NCBI GenBank assembly: GCA_014905825.1
Contig: JACGCN010000009.1
Location: forward strand, 1-64,000
DNA: 64,000 nucleotides
Direction of reading: 5' to 3'
Source of the DNA: Lyophyllum atratum
Taxonomy: Eukaryota; Basidiomycota; Agaricomycetes; Agaricales; Lyophyllaceae
This document shows positions 39,667 through 56,145 of this stretch, piece after piece. The notes beneath the pieces are model-generated. The model searched no databases, was not told the origin of the DNA, and saw only the letters and a program-made list of their open reading frames with translations. The position numbers and the translations under genes are program-made. Every line of letters begins with the position of its first letter. Within the stretch, counting starts at the first letter, position 1.

Positions 39667-41811
39667 ATGTCGTCCCCTGGACAAAACAATGCGAATCACG
39701 TTCTGGAGAAATCAACCGGATCTTCCCAGAGTGACAACGCTACAGTCATCGACGATACAGATGGTGGATCGATTGAATTTCCCAAGTCGATCCCTAGCAC
39801 GCTGCCTACGGAAGAATCCCCGTCTCGTAATTTAGTACTGTGCTTCGACGGGACAGGCGACCAGTGGGTGATTTGATTACGCTCTACATTCTCGCTAACA
39901 AATGCTTGTAGATTCGATGCCGATGCAAGTGTTCCGTATCCACTTCACCGGAGGTTTCTCATACTGTAATTCACAGAACTCAAACATCGTCGAATTCTTC
40001 ACCATGCTCAAGAAAGATGACATGGAGGAGCAGTTGGTATATTATCAGGTACGTCGTTTTGCTATACCACTAGCTCGAGCAAGACCCTGTGTTTGAGACC
40101 CGTTTTGTAGGCCGGCATCGGTACCTACTTCTCTCCAGAGATCGCGACACCTCTGGCTGCTAAAATATCGAAGGTATGCTGTTCCGAAGCATTCTTTGGA
40201 TGTTTGGATCAATTAATGCCTGTCTAGGCGATGGACGAAGCTATTGCGTGGAATTTGTCCGCTCACGTTATGGGTAAGGCATTGTTAGCCTCGGGGATCT
40301 CTAAGTGCTAAGTCTGTCTAGATGGCTACGAGTTCCTTATGCAACATTGTGAGTTGATCGACAACTCGTCGCGCATCCTATAATAATTTCGCACAGACCA
40401 AGCAGGAGACCGCATCTGCATTTTCGGCTTCTCTCGAGGTGCCTATACGGCACGCGCCCTTGCTGGGATGATTCACAAAGTTTGTTCCCAAGGACCCAAC
40501 TACATGCGCGATCGTTCTCACACAGTCGTCGTTTAGGTCGGCTTGCTTCCTGCGAGCAACAAGCAGCAAGTACCTTTCGCCTATAAGATGTACGAAGACG
40601 GCACCAAGTGGGGTTGGAAGCAATCCGATCTGTTTAAGAAGGCATTCTCCGTCGACGTCCCTATTGAGTTTCTGGGTGTATGGTGCGTCTAGAATCCACA
40701 CAAGAACGAAAATCTTGATGCGGTACCGAAATGACCTTGGGTTACAGGGATTCGGTCAATTCCGTAGGCCTCGTCGCAGGCCGTCGCTTGCCGTTCACGA
40801 CATCGAATACTATCATCCGCAAATTCAGGCATGCGATCGCACTCGACGAGCGCCGTATCAAGTTCCAGACTAACGTGTGGAACCGTCCCGACGAAAAAGA
40901 GAAAATGAAAGGAGTCAAAGGACAGAAGCCCGATGTCGCCCGAAAGAAGAAGAAGAAAGACAGGATGTTGAAAAAGCTGCGTAAGTTTGAGAAGAAGCAT
41001 TCCGTGGATACGGATGAGCCGACGGACGTCAAGGAGGTGGGCAGAGCCTTGTCTGACCTGACTCGATTGTTACGACTTATCGTTCTTTCCCAGGTTTGGT
41101 TCACTGGATGTCATTGCGGTACGTCCCAAAAGTGTGCTCTGTGCTTAGACTGATAAGGTGAAACATCCAGATGTCGGTGGTGGCTCCGTCAAAAATGGTG
41201 TCCTGCACAGCCTCGCCCGCATCCCGCTTCGTTGGATGGTACGCGAGTGCTTCAAAGCCAAGACTGGGATAGTCTTCACCTGCGAAGGACTACGCGAAAT
41301 TGGGCTGGATCCGACGTCTCTCTACGACCCATCAGTGCCATTCGACGATCAAGAAGTACGAGATCGCCCACCTGCGCTCCCCATCGACGGCATGTACGTT
41401 CAGCGCATCCCGCCGAACCCTAAAAAGCTGCCCAAACCAGAGCGTAAGAAGGCGAAACAGGAGAGGAAGAAGCAGAGGATCGCTGAGCAGTCTTTCTCCG
41501 AGGAGGAGCATGAGAGGCTCGACGCCCTCTCTCCGATCTACGACCAGCTTAAGCTCTCGCCTATGTGGTGGCTACTCGAGTACCTCCCGTTGACACAGCG
41601 GTACCAACAAGACGACAACACGTGGGTGACACGCAGGCGTTTGAACCGCGGGAAACCCCGAGTCATTCCACACCAGGAGAAGAATGAGGTCCTGGTTCAT
41701 CGGAGCGTCAAGATGCGCATGGACGCACAGTATGAGGATGGGGAGAAGTACGTGCCTCAGGCGTCCTTCGAAGAGGCGCGAAAGCGCGGTTTGTTGAGAT
41801 TCGTTGATTGA
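39667..41811 (+). CDS. DUF2235 alpha/beta hydrolase (Tle1-like), copy A
   Basis: Starts MSSPGQNNANHVLEKSTGSS and reaches the first family block RNLVLCFDGTGDQ. A 13-base microexon (39912-39924, FDAD) follows, then NSNIVEFFTMLKKDD, AGIGTYFSPEIATPL, AIAWNLSAHVMDGYEFLMQH and the nucleophile elbow ICIFGFSRGAYTARALAGMI, with Ser in GFSRG. Next come VPFAYKMYEDGTKWGWKQSD, VPIEFLGVWDSVNSVGL (catalytic Asp region), FRHAIALDERRIKFQTNVW, WFTGCHCDVGGGSVKNG (His region) and LARIPLRWMVRECFKA. A long C-terminal extension ends RGLLRFVD. A Lys-rich insert (about 40940-41010) precedes the His block. The intron after the microexon has a GC donor (39925). Characterised bacterial relatives are phospholipases; here a lipid hydrolase role is only inferred. 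No signal peptide. Confidence 0.88.
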
Positions 41812-42358
41812 GTAGGTTGTTTTGTCGTCGACTATGCTTCATTATCGATCTGTAATTGTGTATCGGTCGTACTGTATATCGCCGTTTGCGTCTGTAGCTC
41901 TTTATTCTCAACTTCTCATGCTGAACGTCCCGGAACTGGCAGACCTGCCTAAACATAGCGATAAGATAAGATAAATGCTGAAACTACTTAGCACCGCCAC
42001 AATTGTAACTTGCGCGTCACCTTCAACGACTCAGCCGATCATTCACAACTCCCAGAACATCCTGGTTCTACTCATTTGGCAGGACTATGATATCTCCTCC
42101 CTCTCTCGTCAGCTGCGAATTCCTGGAAGATACTATCGTCACAGCTTTCGATCGACCGACTCCACTCGCAATTCTACCTTGCTCTTCCTCAACACGGAGA
42201 TTAATTGCTTCCGGACCTCCGATGTCTGACATGGAATATCATGATACCTTTCTCTTGTCAAGCGCATATACAGATCAAATGACCGTGGAGCACCATAAAA
42301 CGCGTTCCAGTTGAACCGAATAGCGCGCGTGAATTTCCCTCATGGAGCGCGTCGCGAG

Positions 42359-42365
42359 TATATAA
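42359..42365 (+). promoter_or_regulatory. TATA box of DUF2235 gene B
   Basis: TATATAA 57 bases upstream of the ATG at 42416, in GCGAGTATATAACTCC. This promoter region is repeated in inverted orientation at about 55500-55620. Confidence 0.5.
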
Positions 42366-42415
42366 CTCCACAGGCATTCTTTACCGCCTCCTCACTCACC
42401 CAATCGCATATAAAC

Positions 42416-44457
42416 ATGCCAAACTTACCCACAGGAACGAAGCATCTTCACGACGCATCCATCGGATCTATCCCGAGCGACAATGCGACAATGATCGATG
42501 ATAGGTCTGACGATTCTTGTAAATTTCCGAACTGTATCCCAACGCGCAGGCCTGGTCGCAACCTCATACTCTGCTTCGATGGGACGGGAGATCAGTAAGT
42601 CATTCCAAGTAAAGCTTTGTTACACCGATGCTAAGGAAGATTCAGGTTTGACTTCGATGTGGGTGGCTCGAATCCTGGCAGATCATGGTATCTCATACAT
42701 CCTTCACAGAATTCAAATATCGTGGAGTTCTTCGGGCTACTAAAAAAAGAAGACATCGATCAGCAAAGGGTTTATTACCAAGTACGTCGCCGTCGCCCGT
42801 AACAAGCTCACGAGCATCGAAATCGAGGTTTTCTCATCAGGCAGGAATTGGCACGTACTGCTCTCCCGCCATCGCCAGTCCTTTGAAAGCCAAGATAGCA
42901 AAAGTCCGCGATGTCGTCACCCACCCAGACCTGGAATACTGATATCCTCGATGCGCAGGTACTGGACCTAGCCATAGCATGGAACCTGTCGGCTCATGTC
43001 ATGGGTAACACGAACTTGTCCTTCCGCGATAAACCTCGTTGAAACCCCACCAGATGGATACGAGTTCCTGATGCAGAACTGTGAGTCCGCAAAGCCAAGC
43101 ATTCTATTCGCTAACGGCTGCCTTCAGATCGAGAAGGCGACCGTATCTGCATATTCGGTTTCTCCAGAGGCGCCTACACTGCTCGTTGCCTTGCTGGAAT
43201 GATATACAAGGTATTCATTTTCATGTCTAACTAGATATATGTCAAACCGACATGTCTCCGTCAGGTGGGCCTGCTCCCGGTGTCCAATCGCCAACAGGTC
43301 CCCTTCGCGTATAAGATGTACGAAGATATCACTCGCGGGGAACAATCCAGAGCCTTCAAGAAGACGTTCTCGATGGACGTTCCCATTGAATTCCTCGGCC
43401 TGTGGTGCGTCTATTTGGATATCTTGGACGATGTTAAGGCCCTAATCCTGACCCCTACCTCAACGCTACCTGTGAAACAGGGACACCGTCAACTCCGTCG
43501 GCCAATTTTCTAACGGTCGAGGTCAGCCAATCGAATCTTCCTACAGCATCATTCGGACCTTCAGGCATGCAGTTGCCCTCGACGAACGGCGGATCAAGTT
43601 TCAGACGAACCTATGGAACCGCGCGAAGGACGCGAAGCTACGTCCAACAACATCTGACGGTTCCGAGGAGAATCGTCACACGCGAAAGCCTGGTTCGGTC
43701 GATATCCAGGAGGTACATGGATCCCCACTGATTAATCAGAGCTCATCACTTATCATCTTCGCTCAGGTTTGGTTTGCTGGTTGCCACTGTGGTACGTTCC
43801 GCCTGGCACACCTCCTTTCTCCTTCGTTTCTTGACGTACCTCGTTTTCGAAGACGTCGGTGGGGGCTCCGTTAAAAATGGTACCCAGCACAGTCTCGCGC
43901 GCATCCCACTTCGGTGGATGGTCCGGGAATGTTTTAAGGCCGAGAGCGGTATCATCTTCATCTCGGAGGCGCTGCGCGCCATCGGGATGGATCTTGCCAC
44001 GCTGTACCCGGAGGTCAAGCCCCGTCGGCCGTCGCTCCCCGTGCTCACCGACATGCACATTCGGCGCGTCCCACCCGGCGCGAAGGGGCGCAAGCCGACC
44101 AAGGAGAACGCCTGTGCCGAGAAACACGCGGACATGGACAAGTCGGAGGAAGAGCACGAGCGGCTGGACGCGCTATCGCCAAAGTACGACCAGCTCAGGC
44201 TCGCGCCGGTGTGGTGGATCCTTGAGCTTGTGCCTGCGAAGCATAGGTATCAGAGGGAGGATGATATGTGGGCTTCGCATCGGTGCGTCCATATTGGAAG
44301 GGGCCGTTCGATTCCGAAGCAGGAGGCGACGCGGATCATGATCCATCGGAGCGTCAAGATGCGCATGGATGCGGAATATGCGGACGGGAAGAAGTATACG
44401 CCGAAGGCGTCGTTTGAAGTGGCAGCTGAACATGATAATGTCGAATGGGTCGACTGA
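42416..44457 (+). CDS. DUF2235 alpha/beta hydrolase (Tle1-like), copy B
   Basis: Closest relative of copy A, 600 bases downstream in the same orientation. Start MPNLPTGTKHLHDASIGSIP; then RNLILCFDGTGDQ, the 13-base microexon (42646-42658, FDFD, normal GT donor), SNIVEFFGLLKKEDIDQQRV, AGIGTYCSPAIASPLKAKIA, LAIAWNLSAHVMDGYEFLMQ, the Ser elbow ICIFGFSRGAYTARCLAGMI, VPFAYKMYEDITRGEQSRAF, IEFLGLWDTVNSVGQ, FRHAVALDERRIKFQTNLWN, VWFAGCHCDVGGGSVKNGTQ and MVRECFKAESGIIFISEALR. It ends EHDNVEWVD (stop 44455-44457). About ten exons. It lacks the Lys-rich insert of copy A. Catalytic Ser, Asp and His regions are all present, so it is probably active. A partial further copy lies immediately downstream. Confidence 0.88.
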
Positions 44458-44837
44458 GTTCGTAGTGATGAGGCGCGATCACTTGCGTCGAGCTCGGCTT
44501 CGTGTGTCAATCCATTTATTACCTGTATCTATATTGTGTCAACAGAGGAATACTCTGTATGGCCATTCGCCTGTGGATGACGTATGTCTTGAAGATTAAC
44601 AGAACCGTGACGCATTTCCGTAGCCTATTATTCTTCTTCGACAAACCCAAGTACTGGCATTGCACACGTCTCATAATAACCAACTTCTGCACCTAAGGAG
44701 CGTTGAAGGTGAGACAAGGACAGTTCACGCATGCCACATCTAAGTAGGGATCCAGATCACAAGAACGTACGTCGACATGCATATCCTGCGCGTCCCGCCC
44801 GGGGCGAAGGGGCTTAACCCGACCAAGGAGAACGCGT
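44458..44837 (+). pseudogene. 3' flank of gene B and first part of a truncated third DUF2235 copy
   Basis: 44458-44766 is gene B 3' flank, repeated at 50860-51104. At CACAAGAA (44762-44769) the sequence switches abruptly to mid-gene coding DNA: 44775-44837 reads DMHILRVPPGAKGLNPTKEN, matching gene B 44050-44110 (DMHIRRVPPGAKGRKPTKEN). It then breaks off. The rest of the fragment reappears beyond the transposon at 50572. About 128 bases (44838-44965) between fragment and target duplication match nothing in gene B and are unexplained. Confidence 0.75.
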
Positions 44838-44965: not shown

Positions 44966-44976
44966 CGTGCGCTGAG
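44966..44976. repeat. 11-base target site duplication, left
   Basis: CGTGCGCTGAG, identical to 50572-50582. The two copies directly flank the inverted-repeat ends of the element. Confidence 0.85.
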
Positions 44977-45016
44977 GGCACAGGAAAATCGCCGTGGCAG
45001 TCGCACGCAAGCGTGC
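44977..45016 (+). repeat. left terminal inverted repeat
   Basis: Begins GGCACAGGAAAA, then GCCGTGGCA and, after ten bases, GCAAGCGTGC. Pairs with 50532-50571. Confidence 0.8.
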
Positions 45017-45202
45017 CACTAGCGTGCAAGCGTGGCACGCTAGTGTCTGTAGATGTAGGCGGGGATCCGGGTGTAGGGACATCTTATCACTTATATATGA
45101 CTCGGAGAGGGTGTATAGACTACCTACCACGATTATCAAAGCTAGATTTCTGTTCAGAAAGCTCGTCGAGGCTCCCGAATCGACGTCAAAAACTGGCTTG
45201 CA

Positions 45203-45400
45203 CGCTAGCACAGCCACATTCGCACGTTACCTGCACGGCACTGCACGTTACCTGCACGGCACTGCACGCTAGGTGCACGGCACTGCACGCTAGCTGCACG
45301 TCAATGCACGCAAGTGCACGTCAATGCACGCGAGTGCACGTCAATGCACGTCAATGCACGCGAGTGCACGCTGAGCACGTCAATGCACGCGAGTGCATGC
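45203..45400 (+). repeat. left subterminal array of GCACG words
   Basis: About fifteen GCACG copies, most in the form TGCACG, spaced roughly 10-19 bases (for example TGCACGGCAC, TGCACGTCAA, TGCACGCGAG). By analogy with other DNA transposons these are probable transposase binding sites. The GCM domain of the encoded protein makes this attractive because animal GCM proteins bind a GC-rich octamer, but the link is inference. Confidence 0.75.
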
Positions 45401-45533
45401 TGATGACAGTGAAGAGTTGCTTGTGAGGCCCGGGGTCGATCCAAGCCCTCGATCGTGTGGTCTGACCCAATGATCAGCGCTCAGCCACGTCAGGTTCAGG
45501 TTCGTTCGTTCCTGCATTCCCTTATCAACAGCC

Positions 45534-48500
45534 ATGGTCCTCGTAAGTCACCCACCATCAGCATCTGGATCATTATGTACTCACTGCCGCACCCACAGGG
45601 TTTCTTCCGTTATATATATCGTTACTTCAGTTCAACGGAGTCCGAGAAGGAAGCAGTGACGGGACAACTGCACGCACGCGAGACACAGGGCCCTCCCATT
45701 CACCTGAATGGGCTATTAAACGACTGTGTTCCGGTATATAATCAGACTGGTAAGCAGTTCACTCTCGGTTAGAATTCACTCGCTGATCAATTTGCATGGT
45801 AGGTGAAGTGATAGGCTATGTACACCGCGAACAGAATGTAACGTTGAAAATAGATCCTAAGCCAGTCCTAGGTAAGAGCGAGCCGTTGACAAACCCGCCT
45901 AAATAATTTTTGACTCTTGATAGACAACATCTCGCATGCAAGCATGCAAGCACCGAAGGCTATGGCGGTAATGAGCGAGGTTTTATATAGGCGTACAACG
46001 CATGGTCAATTTGTACCCATTGAACAGCCCGGAGAACAGGTTCCTAAGGGTTCAACCAGTGTACCAGAGCAATCGGCAAATGCAATGGATTGGGACGGCT
46101 GGCCCGATGGAGAGTTCGAGAAGGATTTTACGTTTCGAGACTTCGAGGAAAGTGACCATTTGAAAGTTCATTGGGCCGTGAGGGTTGGCGGTGGAGATCG
46201 AAGAGGCGACATCTTCGCTTCGGATTGGAAGGGTGGGAAGCGCTCTACCCGACAATGTTTGGGTGTCCTCGAGTGCGATAACCCCCGTTGTCAAGTCATA
46301 ACTCGCCCGAAGACCACACCCAAGGCCATCGACACTCAACTTCAGGGCCCATGCACCAGCTGTGGTGCGAAACTCATCCACGAACTCTGTGGCGTCAAAT
46401 CCCAGTTATGGACTTGGTCCGGCGGTGTTCACTATTCAAACGGAGGCTTCCATGCTCATCAGCGTCCTACACACATTCTCCACCTCCTTCCTGACGAAGA
46501 ACGGCGGTTTCGTGATCTCGTGAAGACGCATCCCAAACTTGGACCGCTTGGACTTATCATCGGGGTTCCTGGAATCAAGGGGCCAGGGGAATCAGTTGCA
46601 GATATATCTGATGTATTTCTGAATGCGGATCGGGTCAGCAAGGAGCGTTCGAAGCTCAAACGAGGGACAGAACTTGGTGGCGATGGATTCATTGCTGCGT
46701 TTTCAATCTTCTGCACCGAGCGCCCTAACTTCGTCATCAACCATATCTTTGGACCAGTCACCGTCATCTCTGTTCAAACACTGTTCATGCGTTCCCAGAT
46801 AGTGAAAGAAGAACTCCTCGATGGTCCGATTAACGGGACAGTAAACGATGCCGCCCATGGATGGTGGAAAGAACGTAATTCACTGCTAATGATCACGTCT
46901 ACCTACTGCCCGACACTCTTCTGCTGGGTCCCTGCACTGATCTCTTATACCAATGGAGCCAGTGCCGAACACTATCAACATCATTTTGACGGTGTCATGC
47001 AAAGCACAGCTCGGGAAGCTGAACGGCAGAAGATACCGATCACGGATCACATGTTTGCTGGCGTACGTTCCATAGTAACTGAGTGGGTCTTGACTTATTT
47101 ATTCTAAAACTTAATGTAGGTCATGGACTTCAGTGAAGCGGAGCGTAAAGGCTTTACCTTAGCATTCATCGCTTTTTGGATAGCACGGCCAGAAGACTCG
47201 CGTTCTCATGGAGAGCTCGAGGAGGCAGCAGGACGTCTGCTGAGAGGGTGTAGGGAGCATTTCCGAGCTGGTGTTACCCGTGTCAGTCGCATAAGCGGTG
47301 CGGTTCCTCCTCAAATGGTCGACGTATTTGTATCGCGCGCGTTAGGCTTACTGGATGCTTCTGACTCCGAGGAGTTTTTGTCCCTCGCATCACTCCTCAC
47401 TCGTGATTTCCCGAAACTCGAATCTTGGCTTGCGTGGTGGATGCGTCCGGCACATGCGGCTATGCTTTTCGAATCAGAGCGCCAGATGGATGTGGACATC
47501 TGGGAATCTCTGCCGAGTACCACGAACGCCGAAGAGGCCATGCATTGGAAACTTTACAGCGGGTGCGGTCGTGACCACGATTTCTTAGAAGGCATGCGGG
47601 CACTACATGCAGTAGCCATATATTATGAACGACTACACAGCGCAGCTTCCAGTAAGTACATCGTGTTATATTGCCTTCGCATTTGCTGATCATCACTTAG
47701 AGGGAGCTCTCATTCGCTATGGTCAACAGGAACCATGGAAGGTCGTGGCTAACAACCTTGGGCGGACAAAGCCGACTCGAGGGCAGAGGCCTGAGGTTAA
47801 GAAGAGAACAGCAAACGATGGGCGCCCTCCTGATACGGTAAAGGAGCTACTTAAGCCAAAGGGTCCGAAGAAGACGCCAAAACGCTCTGCAGTGATATCT
47901 GAAGCCCCTTCACTCGTCTTCGGCCCCATCAGCTATGCTTGGCATAACAACTCATGCTGGCTCGATACATCATTGCAACTTCTATACATCCTGACAGCTA
48001 AGGACTTCGATGAATTCGCCGGATTATTCAAAGGACTCCCTCCCGAGTCTGGACTACACACGCTATATACCATACTAGACCTCCAGCGGACCTTAGACGA
48101 GACTGACAAGTCATCATCTTCTGTACTGAAGAAACAACGCGAGAAACTACGGAAGATTTTGAGACGAAAGCGAATAATTTCTCGATTCACCAGGTGTTCT
48201 ATCGCCTGCGTGGTGGCCTCGAGGCTCAACAGAAATTCTTTTCGCTTCGAAAGAAGGCGTACCAAACTCGATTCCACCTCGTCCTTTCGGAACCAAGTCT
48301 TTCCCAACCATTCACGGTTTCCTATAACCACGCAGACTTCATAATCATGAGCAAAAAGGACAGATTCTGGACGACGAACCCGTTCAGAGCACATACCACC
48401 GAGTACCTTACGCAACCAGATACTACTACTGCCCCACCTTCCACTCCGCCTTCCTCCCCCTCATCAAACTCGCCCGAATCGGAGGACAGGAACGACTCGG

Positions 48501-50055
48501 GATCCGAGACGAAGGACCAAGAGGCTCCTCTGGCGCCACCCCCACGCTCTCAATCCTTCGTATCCTCGGCCCCGGACTCTCTGTTCTCTTTGAACTGTCG
48601 CTGTGGAATTCGTGGTGATGGTAACATACTCTATCGCCAAGAAGACGGTGTATCTATCCAATGCGATGAGTGTAAGGATTGGTCACATATTGCTTGTCAG
48701 CGGGGAGGAAGGGCGAGCGATCTGGGAAAGAACGCTCCGTTTGAGTGTGATTTCTGTGATATACAACACCTTCTACCTCAGAAAATACCTACTAGGACCT
48801 CAAAGCGAAAGTAAGCGGCATTTAGTTATCAATGCCATTTCACTATTAATCTGTTACGGCTCACGTAGGAAGATAGAAGCAGAGACTAGGCTACATAAAC
48901 CGTTGCAAGAACGTCTCAAGTAAGATACAAACGTTCATAATCGTGAAAACATGCTCACACCACATGTGTAGACCCGGCACAGGGGCTTTGGCCCGTCGAG
49001 GCGAGTTCTGGTACCCTGTTCGTGTCATCCAACGGCCAGTGGATTCGAAGAGCGGCTGGAAAGTACGATGGTGGAGGGAGTGCACGTTTGCGATGCCTGG
49101 TCTCGGTCCCGATTCCACTATTCCTCTGAGTGAAATCGTGGATTCGCTATGGATGGATCGCACAGGGCGAAGGAAAATTCGGGTACGCCCTAATCTTTAG
49201 ACATAACAATTAGTGCTAATCTTCATACAGCTCGGTAAATGGCGCCATGCCCACACGATACCAACATCCGAAGATATTCTGGCCGATCCTTCGACAGTCC
49301 CATTCACAACTGAGGTCGACGATGCACTGTCCTTACACAAAGACATTTTAAGGAAGCTCCTAGATGCACCTGCTACTGTGCCAAGTTCAAAAGTACCTGT
49401 GAAAGCTTACATCGACTCTGCAAAGAAGAATCCCTCCACCACCTTGATCCCATATGTTGGTAGCCTTTCCATCATCGAGAGAGCGCAAGTCGCCAACTGG
49501 TTTGAAAAGAACATCAGCCATGACAAAAAGCGCCGGCATGAATGGCTGGGGAGGCTCGCGATAGCCCATGCTCATACCTTACTCATTGCAAGTCGCCTGG
49601 AGCACGAGCCGAAGTTCGAGAACTGTGATGAGGATGCTCGGCTTGAAAAAGCGTGGGAGCTGCAGTTCACAGATGTTCCGTCCATTGACAAGTTGTTGAT
49701 TGATGTTGACGTTGACCGGGAGTCGTTGGAGAAGCTCGAGGCACAAATGTTCGAGCAATCGTCTGCGGCAGGAATAGCAGGTCACTTCCAATGGGGTTTG
49801 GATGCCGGTGATCACCAGGACGGCTGGGACCCATACGCAGGATTGCCAGAGGACTGGTGCCATGGAGACCGGATTGGTAGCGAGACCGAGCTTGAGGTAA
49901 GTGGTGATTGCTATCAGGGTCATGAGAATCTCGCGATTAACTCAGCCTGACAGCGTGGATTCAAATATGAGGAAATAACTCCTCCCATCGAGCCAGTCGT
50001 TCATCAACATGTCGAACGGCCGCGCCCAGTTCCCAGGAGAAAGAAACAGACGTAG
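45534..50055 (+). CDS. multidomain transposase: GCM zinc domain, Mutator-like core, ubiquitin-protease-like box, PHD finger
   Basis: Start MVLGFFRYIYRYF at 45534, joined through about eleven introns. (1) GCM-type DNA-binding domain: RQCLGVLECDNPRCQVITRP, GPCTSCGAKLIHELCG, GGVHYSNGGFHAHQRPTHIL, matching the Cys/His plan of GCM (CLGVVVC, CP.C, KGVHDHPRP). (2) Mutator-like transposase core: NGTVNDAAHGWWKERN (first Asp region), FCWVPALISYTNGASAEHYQ, and VMDFSEAERKGF (second Asp) after an intron at 47063. (3) FGPISYAWHNNSCWLDTSLQ, like the Cys box of ubiquitin-specific proteases. (4) PHD-type finger: CRCGIRGDGN, CDECKDWSHIAC, CDFC. (5) GEFWYPVRVIQRPVDSKSGW, reminiscent of Tudor/BAH-like readers, and an acidic-basic tail to the stop at 50053-50055. 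Between (3) and (4) the frame shifts; a 41-base intron (48123-48163) would repair it. Confidence 0.82.
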
Positions 50056-50385
50056 CCGTACCCTATTGTACCTCTAAATCATTTCAAGCACGTAGCCTAG
50101 TGTAGCAACCAAGTGTAGTAGTAGATTGTTGAAGATACCCCGGAATTGACACTTTTGAGATTCTGTAGCATTCTCATGCGGGACGTACAAGTTCAGTGCT
50201 TTAAGGGACTCAAATGGATCACATATCCGTGTTTTGATAGTTATTTGACCTTAGCTGTAGACCCCCCAGCCTGCGGAGACGAGTTTTTGCAAGTCGAAGT
50301 TTTGCCGAGCTCATGTGACACGGCAGGTTCCTCAGACGTCGCAAGCCATCATTCTTAATATTATCTCTGCGCACTACATAGGAGC

Positions 50386-50531
50386 ATGCACGCCAAAAAT
50401 CAAACCTGCACGGCAGAAATCAGACTTGCACGGCAGAAATCAGATCTGCACGCAGAAAGGTGACTTGCACGCAAATTAGAGTGTTTGCACGCTAATTATC
50501 GACTGCCGTGCCACGCTAAAAAAGGTGTTTC
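50386..50531 (+). repeat. right subterminal array of GCACG words
   Basis: Repeats of TGCACGGCAGAAATCAGA-like units at 50386-50460, then TGCACGCAAATT and TGCACGCTAATT. This is the counterpart of the left array, but the spacer sequence differs. Confidence 0.7.
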
Positions 50532-50571
50532 GCACGCTTGCACGGCAGTGCCACGGCAATTTCTATAGGCC
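50532..50571 (-). repeat. right terminal inverted repeat
   Basis: On the minus strand begins GGCCTATAGAAA, then GCCGTGGCA and GCAAGCGTGC at the same offsets as in the left end. Confidence 0.8.
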
Positions 50572-50582
50572 CGTGCGCTGAG
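50572..50582. repeat. 11-base target site duplication, right
   Basis: CGTGCGCTGAG, the second copy. It continues directly into DUF2235 sequence (AAACACGCAGACATGG). Confidence 0.85.
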
Positions 50583-51110
50583 AAACACGCAGACATGGAC
50601 AGGTCGGAGGATGAGCAGGAGCGCTGTCGCCGAAGTACGACCAGCTCGGTGTAGTGGATCCGTGAGCTTGTCATAGGTATCAGGGGGAGGACGATACGTG
50701 GGCAAATTCGCATCGGTGTGAAATCCATCTTGGTAGGGGCCGGCAGAATCTGGCGACGCGGATTATGATCCATCGGAGCGTCGAGATGCGAATGGATGCG
50801 GGGTTTAAGGACGGGAAGAGGTATTGGGTTTGAACTGGCAGCTGAACATGAGACGGATCTCGTAGTGATGAGTCGCGATCACTTGCGTCGAGCTCGAATT
50901 TGTGTTTTATCCATCTATTAGATGCTCGATATTGCCCGTTCGCCTGTGAATGTGAAAATTGGCAAAATCGGGACGCATCTTCATAGCCTATCCTTCGACG
51001 CGTCTCATAATAACCAAGTTTTGCACCTAAGGAGCGTCGAAAATCTGTAGACAAGGAAGGTCAACGCAGGCCGCATCTACGTAGGGATCCAGTTCACAAG
51101 AACGCCGATT
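50583..51110 (+). pseudogene. second part of the split, truncated DUF2235 copy with its 3' flank
   Basis: Matches gene B 44119-44766: EKHADMDRSEDEQER-like sequence, the HRSVEMRMDAGF block (50770-50810), then the 3' flank GTAGTGATGAGTCGCGATCA and the words CACCTAAGGAGCG and GGGATCCAGTTCACAAGAAC. Frameshifts and deletions are frequent, so it is dead. Together with 44775-44837 it is one partial copy that the transposon entered. Confidence 0.8.
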
Positions 51111-53936: not shown

Positions 53937-55430
53937 AGCTTAATATATGTACGCTCGTTATATATGAGGAGTCGAGGGAGTGCGGGGTATCTTTATTGTA
54001 TGTAGTTCGTATGTAGTTATCCACGTGCTGACCGACGCCTTTCTTTGCTTCCTATGCTTCGCCGCTCAGCCGCCGCGTAGGCTTTGTATATAGTTTATCT
54101 CTGAATATTATTATTTAGGCGACTGCTCGCGGTGACGGCGACGTGCTTGGTAGTAAATCCTTTGCTGACTCTGGATGTTTTCTTTTTTCAGTAGCCCGAA
54201 TAAGTCGACGATATTTGAGTTCTGGGGAGGATGTATGAGACAGAATTGGAGCCACCCACATCGAAGTCAAACCTGAATCAGCATCGAGCTTTACTTGGAA
54301 TGACTTACTGGTCTCCCGTCCCATCGAAGCAGAGTACGAGGCTGCGACCAGGCCTGCGCGTCGGGATACATTTCGGACTCAATTTACAAAAGTCGTCAGA
54401 CCCACCATTGATCATCGTGGTTTCCGACCACTGTTGACTGTACCCCGACATACGGCGTTCGGCTTTGTAGTTCCTCTTGATCTTTAGCTTAATATACGTA
54501 CGCTCGTTATGATGAGAAGTCGAGGGACTGCTGGGTATCTTTATTGTATGTAGTTCTAAGTAAGTAAGTATGTAGTTATCCACACCCTGACCTCGCTCAG
54601 CCACCGCCTTTCTTTGCTTCCTATCCTTCGCCGCTCGGTGCTCGCTCGCCCGGTAGGCTTTGTACACAGTTTATCTCCGAATATTATTATTTAGGCGACT
54701 GCTCGCGAGCTTGTAACCGGCGACGGCGACGTGCTTGGTAGTAAATCCTTTGTTGATGGATGTCTTCTTTTTGGGGTAGCCCGAAAAAGTCGACGACATT
54801 TGAGTTCTGTGCAGGATGTATGAGATACCATGATCCCCCAGAATTCGAGCCACCCACATCGAACTTGTCAAACCTGATTCGTTCTTAGCATCGGTGTAAT
54901 AACAAAGCTTTACTTGGAATGACTTACTGGTCTCCCGTCCCATCGAAGCAGAGTACGAGCGCGCGTCGGGATCCATTTCGGACTCAATTTACAAGAGTCG
55001 TCAGACCCACCATTGATCATCGTGGCGTTGTCGCTCGGGACAGATCCGATGGAAGTTTATCTACGAATATTATTATTTAGGCGACTGCTCGCGGTGACCG
55101 CGACGTGCTTGGTAGTAACTCCTTTGCTGATCGATGTCTTCTTTTTTTGGGTAGCCCTAAAAAGTCGACGATATTTGAGTTCTGTGCAGGATGTATGTGA
55201 GATACCATGATCTGCCCGGATTCGAGCCATCCACATCGAACTTGTCAAATCTGAATCGTTCTGAGCATCGGTGTAATACCGAAGCGTTACTTGGAATGAC
55301 TTACTGGTCTCCCGTCCCATCGACGAGGTCGCGACCAGGCCTGCGCGTCGGGATCATTTCGGACTCAATTTACAAGAGTCGTCGGACCCACCATTAATCA
55401 TCGTGGCATTGTCGCTCGGGACAGATGCGT
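53937..55430 (-). repeat. tandem array of DUF2235 first exons
   Basis: Three copies on the minus strand of the gene B start region (leader, DGSC-type N-terminus, LVLCFDGTGDQ, first intron, microexon, NSNIVEFF-like exon up to YYQ). They lie at about 54420-54110, 55010-54690 and 55430-55070. Two of them are followed by an unrelated spacer of about 190 bases containing TATCTTTATTGTATGTAGTT (about 53937-54085 and 54485-54665), giving a period near 550-570. All copies stop after the third exon, so none can make the hydrolase. The microexon is 13 bases in one copy and 16 in the other two. Confidence 0.8.
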
Positions 55431-56145
55431 CGTGAACGTGCAAGTTCGTTCCTGTGTGTAAGTTTCGCATGTTTATATGCGATTGGGTGAGTGGGGAGGC
55501 GGTAAATAATGCCTGTGGAGTTATGTACCAATCAACACGTTACACCCTCCATGAGGGAAATTCACGCGCGCTACTCGGTTCCCCAGAAACGCGTTTTAGG
55601 GTGCGCCACGATCATTTGGTCTGTATACGAGCGTGACGAGAGAAAGGTATGATGATATTCCATGTCAGAAATCGTAAAATCTCCGTGTTGAGGAAGAGCA
55701 AGGGAATTGCGAGTGGAGTCGGTCGATTGAAAGCTGTGATGATAGCATCTTCCAGGAATCCGCAGCTGACGTGCGAGGGAGGAGGTATCATAGCGGTCCT
55801 AAATGGGTAGAACCAGGATGTTCTAGGATGAGTGAATGATCGGCTGAGTCGATGAAGGTGACGCGGAAAAGAGCAAGATACAATTGTGGCGGTGCTAGTT
55901 TCAGCATTTATCTTATCTTATCGCTATGTTTAGGCAGGTCTGCCAGTTCCGGGACGTTCAGCATGAGAAGTTGAAAATAAAGAGCTACAGACGCAAACGG
56001 CTACAAGTACGACCGATATACAATCACAAATTGATAATGAAGCATAGTCGACGATAAAAACAACCTAGTCAATCAACGAATCTCAACAAACCGCGCTTTC
56101 TTGTGAACTGAATCCCTACTTAGATGTGGCCTACGTGAACGTCGG
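55431..56145 (-). repeat. inverted duplicate of the gene A / gene B intergenic region
   Basis: The complement of 56105-55500 matches 41786-42430: last codons of gene A (GLLRFVD-like), its 3' flank, the words AACGTCCCGGAACTGGCAGA and GATAAGATAAGATAAATGCTG, and the gene B promoter. Beyond 56105 it switches at CACAAGAA to sequence resembling the gene B 3' flank (44720-44769). The array and this segment are therefore one inverted, rearranged copy of the DUF2235 tandem locus. Confidence 0.8.

Follow-up and report, generated by a model that had tools for sequence, protein, structure and literature searches.

The Ginger1-9_HM transposase carries Ulp1 and PHD domains, Ulp1 domains also occur in hydra, lancelet and plant Mutator transposons, and one figure legend describes an alignment of Ulp1 and PHD domains from Ginger1 and Mutator transposases (Bao et al., 2010; PMC2836005). 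That paper also suggested, in 2010, that the ubiquitin and SUMO pathways take part in transposition, its available text describing no test of this. The element considered here lies in a 64,000-nucleotide stretch of Lyophyllum atratum DNA (contig JACGCN010000009.1, positions 1 to 64,000; 'the window' below means this whole stretch). We hold it, with a probability of about 0.78, to be a DNA transposon, likely Mutator-like, that occupies positions 44976-50572, is bordered by a 9-bp target site duplication and belongs to a family in which a GCM-type zinc domain, a predicted DDE transposase, a predicted USP-fold protease and a PHD finger are joined, this copy being without the part of the protease that carries the His and Asp. 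The element itself is real. What is new is the combination of a USP fold with GCM, DDE, PHD and a barrel-like C-terminus as an Agaricomycetes-wide family, together with one holozoan relative that has GCM, DDE and USP.

Element edges and short copies

The original prediction had placed a complete transposon between identical 11-base flanks (44966-44976 and 50572-50582). These flanks are present, but when 22 paired copies, obtained by a genome-wide search with the ends, are placed side by side, the true edges lie one base further out on both sides. The corrected element is 44976-50572, 5,597 bp long, with the termini GGGCACAGG...CTATAGGCCC, and its duplication is 9 bp rather than 11: an exact 9-bp duplication borders 16 of the 22 paired copies (at least 8/9 in 18/22), whereas the earlier edges give an exact 11-base duplication in only three. 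In the 11-base flanks, the outermost C and G belong to the element as its terminal letters and match by chance. Two copies have no clear duplication (L038, 2/9; L042, 5/9), and a 10-base register fits L043 exactly and L032 with one mismatch. The features of the edges are as follows.

44967-44975, no strand: left copy of the target site duplication, 9 bp, GTGCGCTGA (paired-copy comparison)
44976-50572, + strand: whole element with corrected edges (paired-copy comparison)
44976-45016, + strand: left inverted end (29/40 positions agree with the right end, in the register of the original prediction)
45177-45405, approximate, + strand: left subterminal GCACG array (motif count)
50380-50572, + strand: right subterminal GCACG array and right inverted end (motif count, end matches)
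50573-50581, no strand: right copy of the target site duplication, 9 bp (paired-copy comparison)

The inverted ends do match at 29 of 40 positions without gaps, as had been claimed, and the subterminal arrays stand far above expectation at both ends, with 22 occurrences of GCACG/CGTGC in 44976-45425 (mean 3.8 and maximum 11 in 500 first-order random sequences) and nine in 50380-50572 (mean 1.0, maximum 7). A search for a clean empty allele, made by joining the two flanks, returned only partial matches to a tandem unit at 44.05-44.77 kb (a 63-base piece of the left flank at 87% and the right flank at 67% over 663 columns).

That this is a DNA transposon with many copies is borne out by the ends that the 22 paired copies have in common. 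The left end (124 bases, 44977-45100) matches 25 places in the genome and the right end (132 bases) 24, from which 22 pairs were formed, the window included, leaving left ends alone at C24, C14 and C119 and right ends alone at C64 and C68. Each of the 21 other paired copies resembles the window element at its two ends and is without most of the gene, and 18 of them share further inner stretches with it at ~72-96% identity. Twenty are 1.06-1.58 kb long; the remaining one, L029, reaches 5.06 kb because of a nested insertion. These 21 copies were probably mobilized in trans, either by a relative or by the element itself in an earlier, whole form. L048-L050 have an end type, GGCG, that is also found at the coding copy at C119.

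Several observations on individual copies may be added. L029 (C78:284882-289944) is an interior-deleted copy of ~1.4 kb with a nested insertion of ~3.6 kb, in which a 706-codon open frame has no Pfam family match at E 0.01. The closest coding relative, the C119 copy (L030/L023, C119:2124500-2139371), has the end type GGGCACAGGAAAATCGGCGTGG in common with L048-L050; its transposase exon is split by ~6 kb, and the left end of another copy lies downstream. Around the related genes at C64 and C24, no ends with duplications were found within the 10 kb examined for each.

The interrupted gene and its relatives

The interior of the element holds one gene, which the original prediction ran from 45534 to 50055 as a single polypeptide with all of its modules. 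Its start resembles that of the annotated homolog P0001 and its exon chain agrees with the homologs (the third intron was picked among 12 in-frame options for its GTAAGA..TAG), but the frame is interrupted and reaches a stop at 48344.

45534-48344, + strand: gene to the frame change, 847 residues (848 codons with stop), open across GT-AG introns
45534-45542, 45599-45749, 45803-45871, 45924-47062, 47120-47651, 47701-48344 (stop), + strand: its exons
46256-46468, + strand: GCM-type zinc domain, zinc-ligand core (family profile against mouse GCM1, 1odh)
46847-46849, + strand: first Asp of the DDE triad (D1, VNDAAH)
47126-47128, + strand: second Asp (D2, VMDFS)
47249-47260, + strand: C-x2-H motif (GCREH)
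47534-47536, + strand: Glu of the DDE triad (E, TTNAEEAM, second E)
47946-48179, approximate, + strand: N-terminal piece of the USP fold with Cys box NNSCWLD, Cys codon 47955-47957 (fold from relatives)
48179-48180, no strand: junction of the missing segment, with frame change (comparison with the C119 copy)
48181-48810, + strand: downstream open frame, in a different reading frame, with the end of the USP region, a post-protease segment and the PHD finger
48596-48756, + strand: PHD finger, C4HC3 (Pfam PHD; family profile against the PDB)
48869-48919, + strand: short linker exon
48972-49182, + strand: GEFWYPVRV exon (predicted strands in the matching part of homolog P0024)
49231-50055, + strand: C-terminal helical region (exons 49231-49896 and 49954-50055, with stop)

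Between KRII and IHQVFY the window is missing ~737 nt (an intron included) of the C119 relative: the annotated C119 protein has 229 residues from the one to the other, while in the window KRII is followed directly by SIHQVFY, and the two sides of the junction (~48179) lie in different frames. The translations at C64, C119, C65 and C24 all have a long segment with 'HF' and 'YDG' boxes before '..V.Y.LRGG', and the segment of the C119 copy that is missing here contains the protease His and Asp boxes. Within the limits set, 12 GT/GC-AG pairs could reconnect the frames, one of them 71 nt long (48123-48193), and with or without such a cryptic splice the protease His and Asp are absent from the window copy. 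No more would be expected from it than a GCM-DDE protein that breaks off within the protease or, with a cryptic intron spliced out, a longer protein lacking protease activity. The copy therefore cannot be called complete, nor does it show all modules on a single polypeptide, because the frame is interrupted at the missing segment. The GCM ligands, DDE triad and CxxH are all intact.

The case for one protein comes from relatives. A protein search in which 7,988 candidates were scored gave 38 related proteins, from 14 genera of Agaricomycetes together with P0038, labelled Opistho-2 in EukProt and from a unicellular holozoan; the protein searches scored 7,988, 7,992 and 7,548 candidates, and absences among these mean little. 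Counts out of 35 refer to alignment A1, which leaves out P0033, P0035 and P0036. The protease alignment A2 used ten of the 38 and A5 nine, A3 and A4 all of them and A7 six, P0017 not being used. The GCM ligands, the DDE and protease triads and the PHD ligands all occur in one annotated protein in 13 of the 35 rows, spread over eight genera, and GCM, DDE and the protease triad together in 17 rows, P0038 among them. In the L. atratum genome, four other loci have whole-gene relatives (C64, C24, C119 and C65), with a weaker fifth transposase match at C57 (27-28% identity). When P0038 served as query, it was itself the sole protein recovered; a GCM-DDE profile search added three more proteins from fungi, to which no Pfam label was attached, and NCBIfam had nothing useful for three proteins. 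The source annotations describe hypothetical, predicted, uncharacterized or zinc-finger (PHD-, CCHC-type) proteins. P0038 has its divergent USP-like domain in the shared position and, besides, the first part of another USP domain, of canonical type, at residues 1106-1203 (Pfam UCH, E 8.8e-10).

The GCM-type zinc domain of the original prediction was recovered by a family profile against mouse GCM1 1odh (E 1.3e-8 and 1.5e-6), with Pfam GCM matching four of 35 members (best 2.9e-5). The DDE triad is present in all 27 covering rows, and the CxxH between D2 and E has its C in 32 and its H in 33 of the 34 rows with a letter. The order of predicted secondary structures is compatible with an RNase H-like fold with a helical insertion; the DDE profile against the PDB matched designed proteins and EB3. 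The claim of a PHD finger stands as well. It is of C4HC3 type and, in the window frame, matches Pfam PHD with E 4.3e-4 (20.7 of 24 bits, under the cut-off), a single-sequence scan of the six window frames giving this and chance matches. All eight ligands are kept in 21/35 rows and 22/35 have a Pfam match, with the fingers of P0002 and P0006 over the cut-off. As for the putative reader-like segment around GEFWYPVRV, strands are predicted in the matching residues 660-708 of P0024.

The USP-like Cys box that had been noticed is, in the relatives, part of a full domain, of which the window copy is without the His/Asp part. Structure comparisons of relatives predict a complete USP fold with thumb, palm and fingers, an assignment that we regard as firm for these relatives. 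USP-fold chains occupy all of the best 50 rows in both VIA lists, so that the absence from those rows of the transposase, the barrel, the PHD finger and, in one list, USPL1 is not evidence. In a viral structure library the top match was a 544-residue uncharacterised bracovirus protein (571 columns), which may be a polydnavirus Mutator-like element (MULE) protein. Pfam UCH matched two of ten slices (best E 0.0012), and the protease profile against PDB sequences had a sole match at E <=10, to USP54 (E 0.98), which is suggestive only.

Weighing the alternatives

It is tempting to see in the whole relatives one protein that reads chromatin and erases marks from it. The GCM domain would bind the element ends, probably at the subterminal GCACG arrays, and the DDE core would cut and join with a 9-base stagger, while the PHD finger and the predicted C-terminal beta-barrel might tether the complex to histone tails. 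The USP domain would take off ubiquitin, or a related modifier ending in Gly-Gly, from the transposase itself or from chromatin or repair proteins at the cut site. Chromatin reading and deubiquitination are inferred, and we put forward only tentatively the full proposal, in which PHD and barrel find chromatin, an active USP strips ubiquitin (from chromatin, itself or repair factors), GCM-DDE inserts, and the GCM-DDE-USP fusion is old, as its presence in the holozoan protein P0038 would suggest. It seems rather doubtful that the USP-fold domain instead acts on SUMO, as an isopeptidase of the USPL1 (C98) kind, which would be a convergence with the Ulp1 SUMO proteases that Mutator and Ginger transposases are reported to carry (PMC2836005). 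USPL1-SUMO is second in the Foldseek ranking (E 2.3e-8) and Peptidase_C98 (PF15499) matches one of ten slices at E 0.052, but Pfam UCH does better; an aromatic residue after the His is common to the USP and USPL1 kinds (PMC7391069) and is therefore not decisive. We think it unlikely that the protease has retained its fold but no enzyme activity, or that it is a passenger in decay, although the missing segment of the window copy shows that loss is possible: the Cys, His, Asp/Asn triad is kept in 23 of 25 covering relatives, and the distant P0038 has it too.

Several points do weigh against the GCM-DDE-USP-PHD transposon as we read it, and some of them favour these and other alternatives. The Cys is replaced in two of the 25 covering rows (P0023, S; P0034, L), and in nine of the 35 rows the position is empty, in some perhaps through errors in the gene model. 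The protease and the post-protease segment are the least conserved parts (31-32% and 29% median pairwise identity, versus 51% for DDE), with the GCM, PHD and barrel parts also above the protease. The P0001 slice matches Pfam UCH below the cut-off (E 0.013, 15.5 of 23.9 bits, profile positions 7-231 of 254). For the transposase, Pfam MULE (PF10551) matches none of the 35 members at E 0.5, and hhalign of the DDE alignment (nine rows) with five MULE proteins of the genome (L051, L052, L055, L056 and L057; L053, L054, L058 and L059 were not included) gives a probability of 0.3% with shallow alignments, about as low a score as the unrelated control of protease against MULE. A transposase from another RNase H-fold superfamily with a helical insertion (hAT-like or Rehavkus-like), or from a new one, would account for this, but appears quite improbable given the 9-bp duplication, the CxxH, the GCM-type finger and a triad spacing close to that of Muta1. 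Since both profile tests are without a match, Mutator membership, which the original prediction had asserted and which we consider likely from sequence features, is based on triad spacing, CxxH and duplication length, to which the inverted ends may be added. Finally, the homologs are gene predictions, some of which skip exons: the public model P0024 (L023) omits a PHD-coding stretch that is an open frame in the DNA. It is nonetheless very improbable that the modules are separate host genes fused by gene prediction. The gene model, built for C64 alone (1,517 residues), joins its modules across eight GT-AG introns of 48-57 nt, and its whole sequence recurs unchanged in annotated P0001 from L. 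atratum, which has 178 more residues at its start; the counterparts of the window exons follow one another in the same order, within ~5 kb at C64 and C24 and with inserts of several kb between them at C119 and C65; and the 13 rows with all four signatures come from eight genera.

The genome has nine PF10551 matches of its own (L051-L059), eight over the cut-off. Membership of Ginger1 was rejected, the duplications being 9 bp and of differing sequence instead of CCGG/CCGT. The element adjoins the second of two tandem units of host DNA (44113-44767 and 50574-51104), 67% alike; an upstream frame (43732-44454) has a weak match to Pfam PF09994 (E 3.6e-4, below the cut-off), and a ~1-kb inverted repeat, 84% identical, flanks the region on both sides (41780-42797 and 55093-56100).

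Comparison with known systems

The predicted fusion in whole relatives would let an element act upon proteins that surround the DNA into which it moves. With its USP fold, PHD finger and many mobile short copies, the family offers a test case both for whether ubiquitin-type marks need to be removed and for whether chromatin reading steers insertion, and it bears on the annotation of proteins now labelled hypothetical or zinc-finger. Kaonashi elements are plant MULEs with Ulp1-like genes, whose SUMO-protease-like domain is a likeness although it belongs to another protease clan. Among the literature matches listed, no title concerns such a fusion; subscription papers are thinly covered there, so that absence from print is not shown. 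The available text of a screen for fusions of fungal host genes and transposable elements does not mention GCM-DDE-USP-PHD (PMC10799480).

A transposon-borne protease of ubiquitin or SUMO type is in itself a known kind, given the Ulp1 and C19 cases (PMC2836005) and the Helitron VTDs (PMC9741609), and several unrelated transposons carry such enzymes. The Mutator and Ginger1 transposons with Ulp1 likewise fuse a DDE transposase to a protease of ubiquitin-like proteins, but theirs is of Ulp1/OTU type rather than the USP (C19) fold of the fungal family, and Ginger differs further in its integrase-type core and its CCGG/CCGT target duplications (PMC2836005). Trichomonas XP_001314237.1 has, as here, a C19 protease beside a transposase, although its core is transposase_11 and neither GCM nor PHD is mentioned in the available text (PMC2836005). 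The VTD/OTU enzymes of Helitrons are transposon-encoded deubiquitinases, as the fungal USP is predicted to be, yet Helitrons are rolling-circle elements and the VTD motif is Asp-x-His, whereas in the fungal family the Asp follows the His as in USPs (PMC9741609). In the architecture of the element, the Phantom MULEs (Muta1) are similar in their 8-9 bp duplication, N-terminal zinc finger (FLYWCH), DDE core with a CH motif, subterminal tandem repeats and non-autonomous derivatives, but the Muta1 transposase has 504 residues and the available descriptions give it no protease or PHD finger (PMC5225508, PMC6446971). Much the same is true of the Tm1 Mutator/Foldback elements of root-knot nematodes, in which 9-bp duplications predominate, short repeats lie within the ends and short copies accompany a coding one; their transposase of 496 residues is again described, in the available text, with neither (PMC3169594). 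Rehavkus, compared by description only, shares the 9-bp duplication, a PHD finger in the transposase and repeats before the 3' end, but is listed from arthropods and annelids, and that description includes no protease (PMC6446971).
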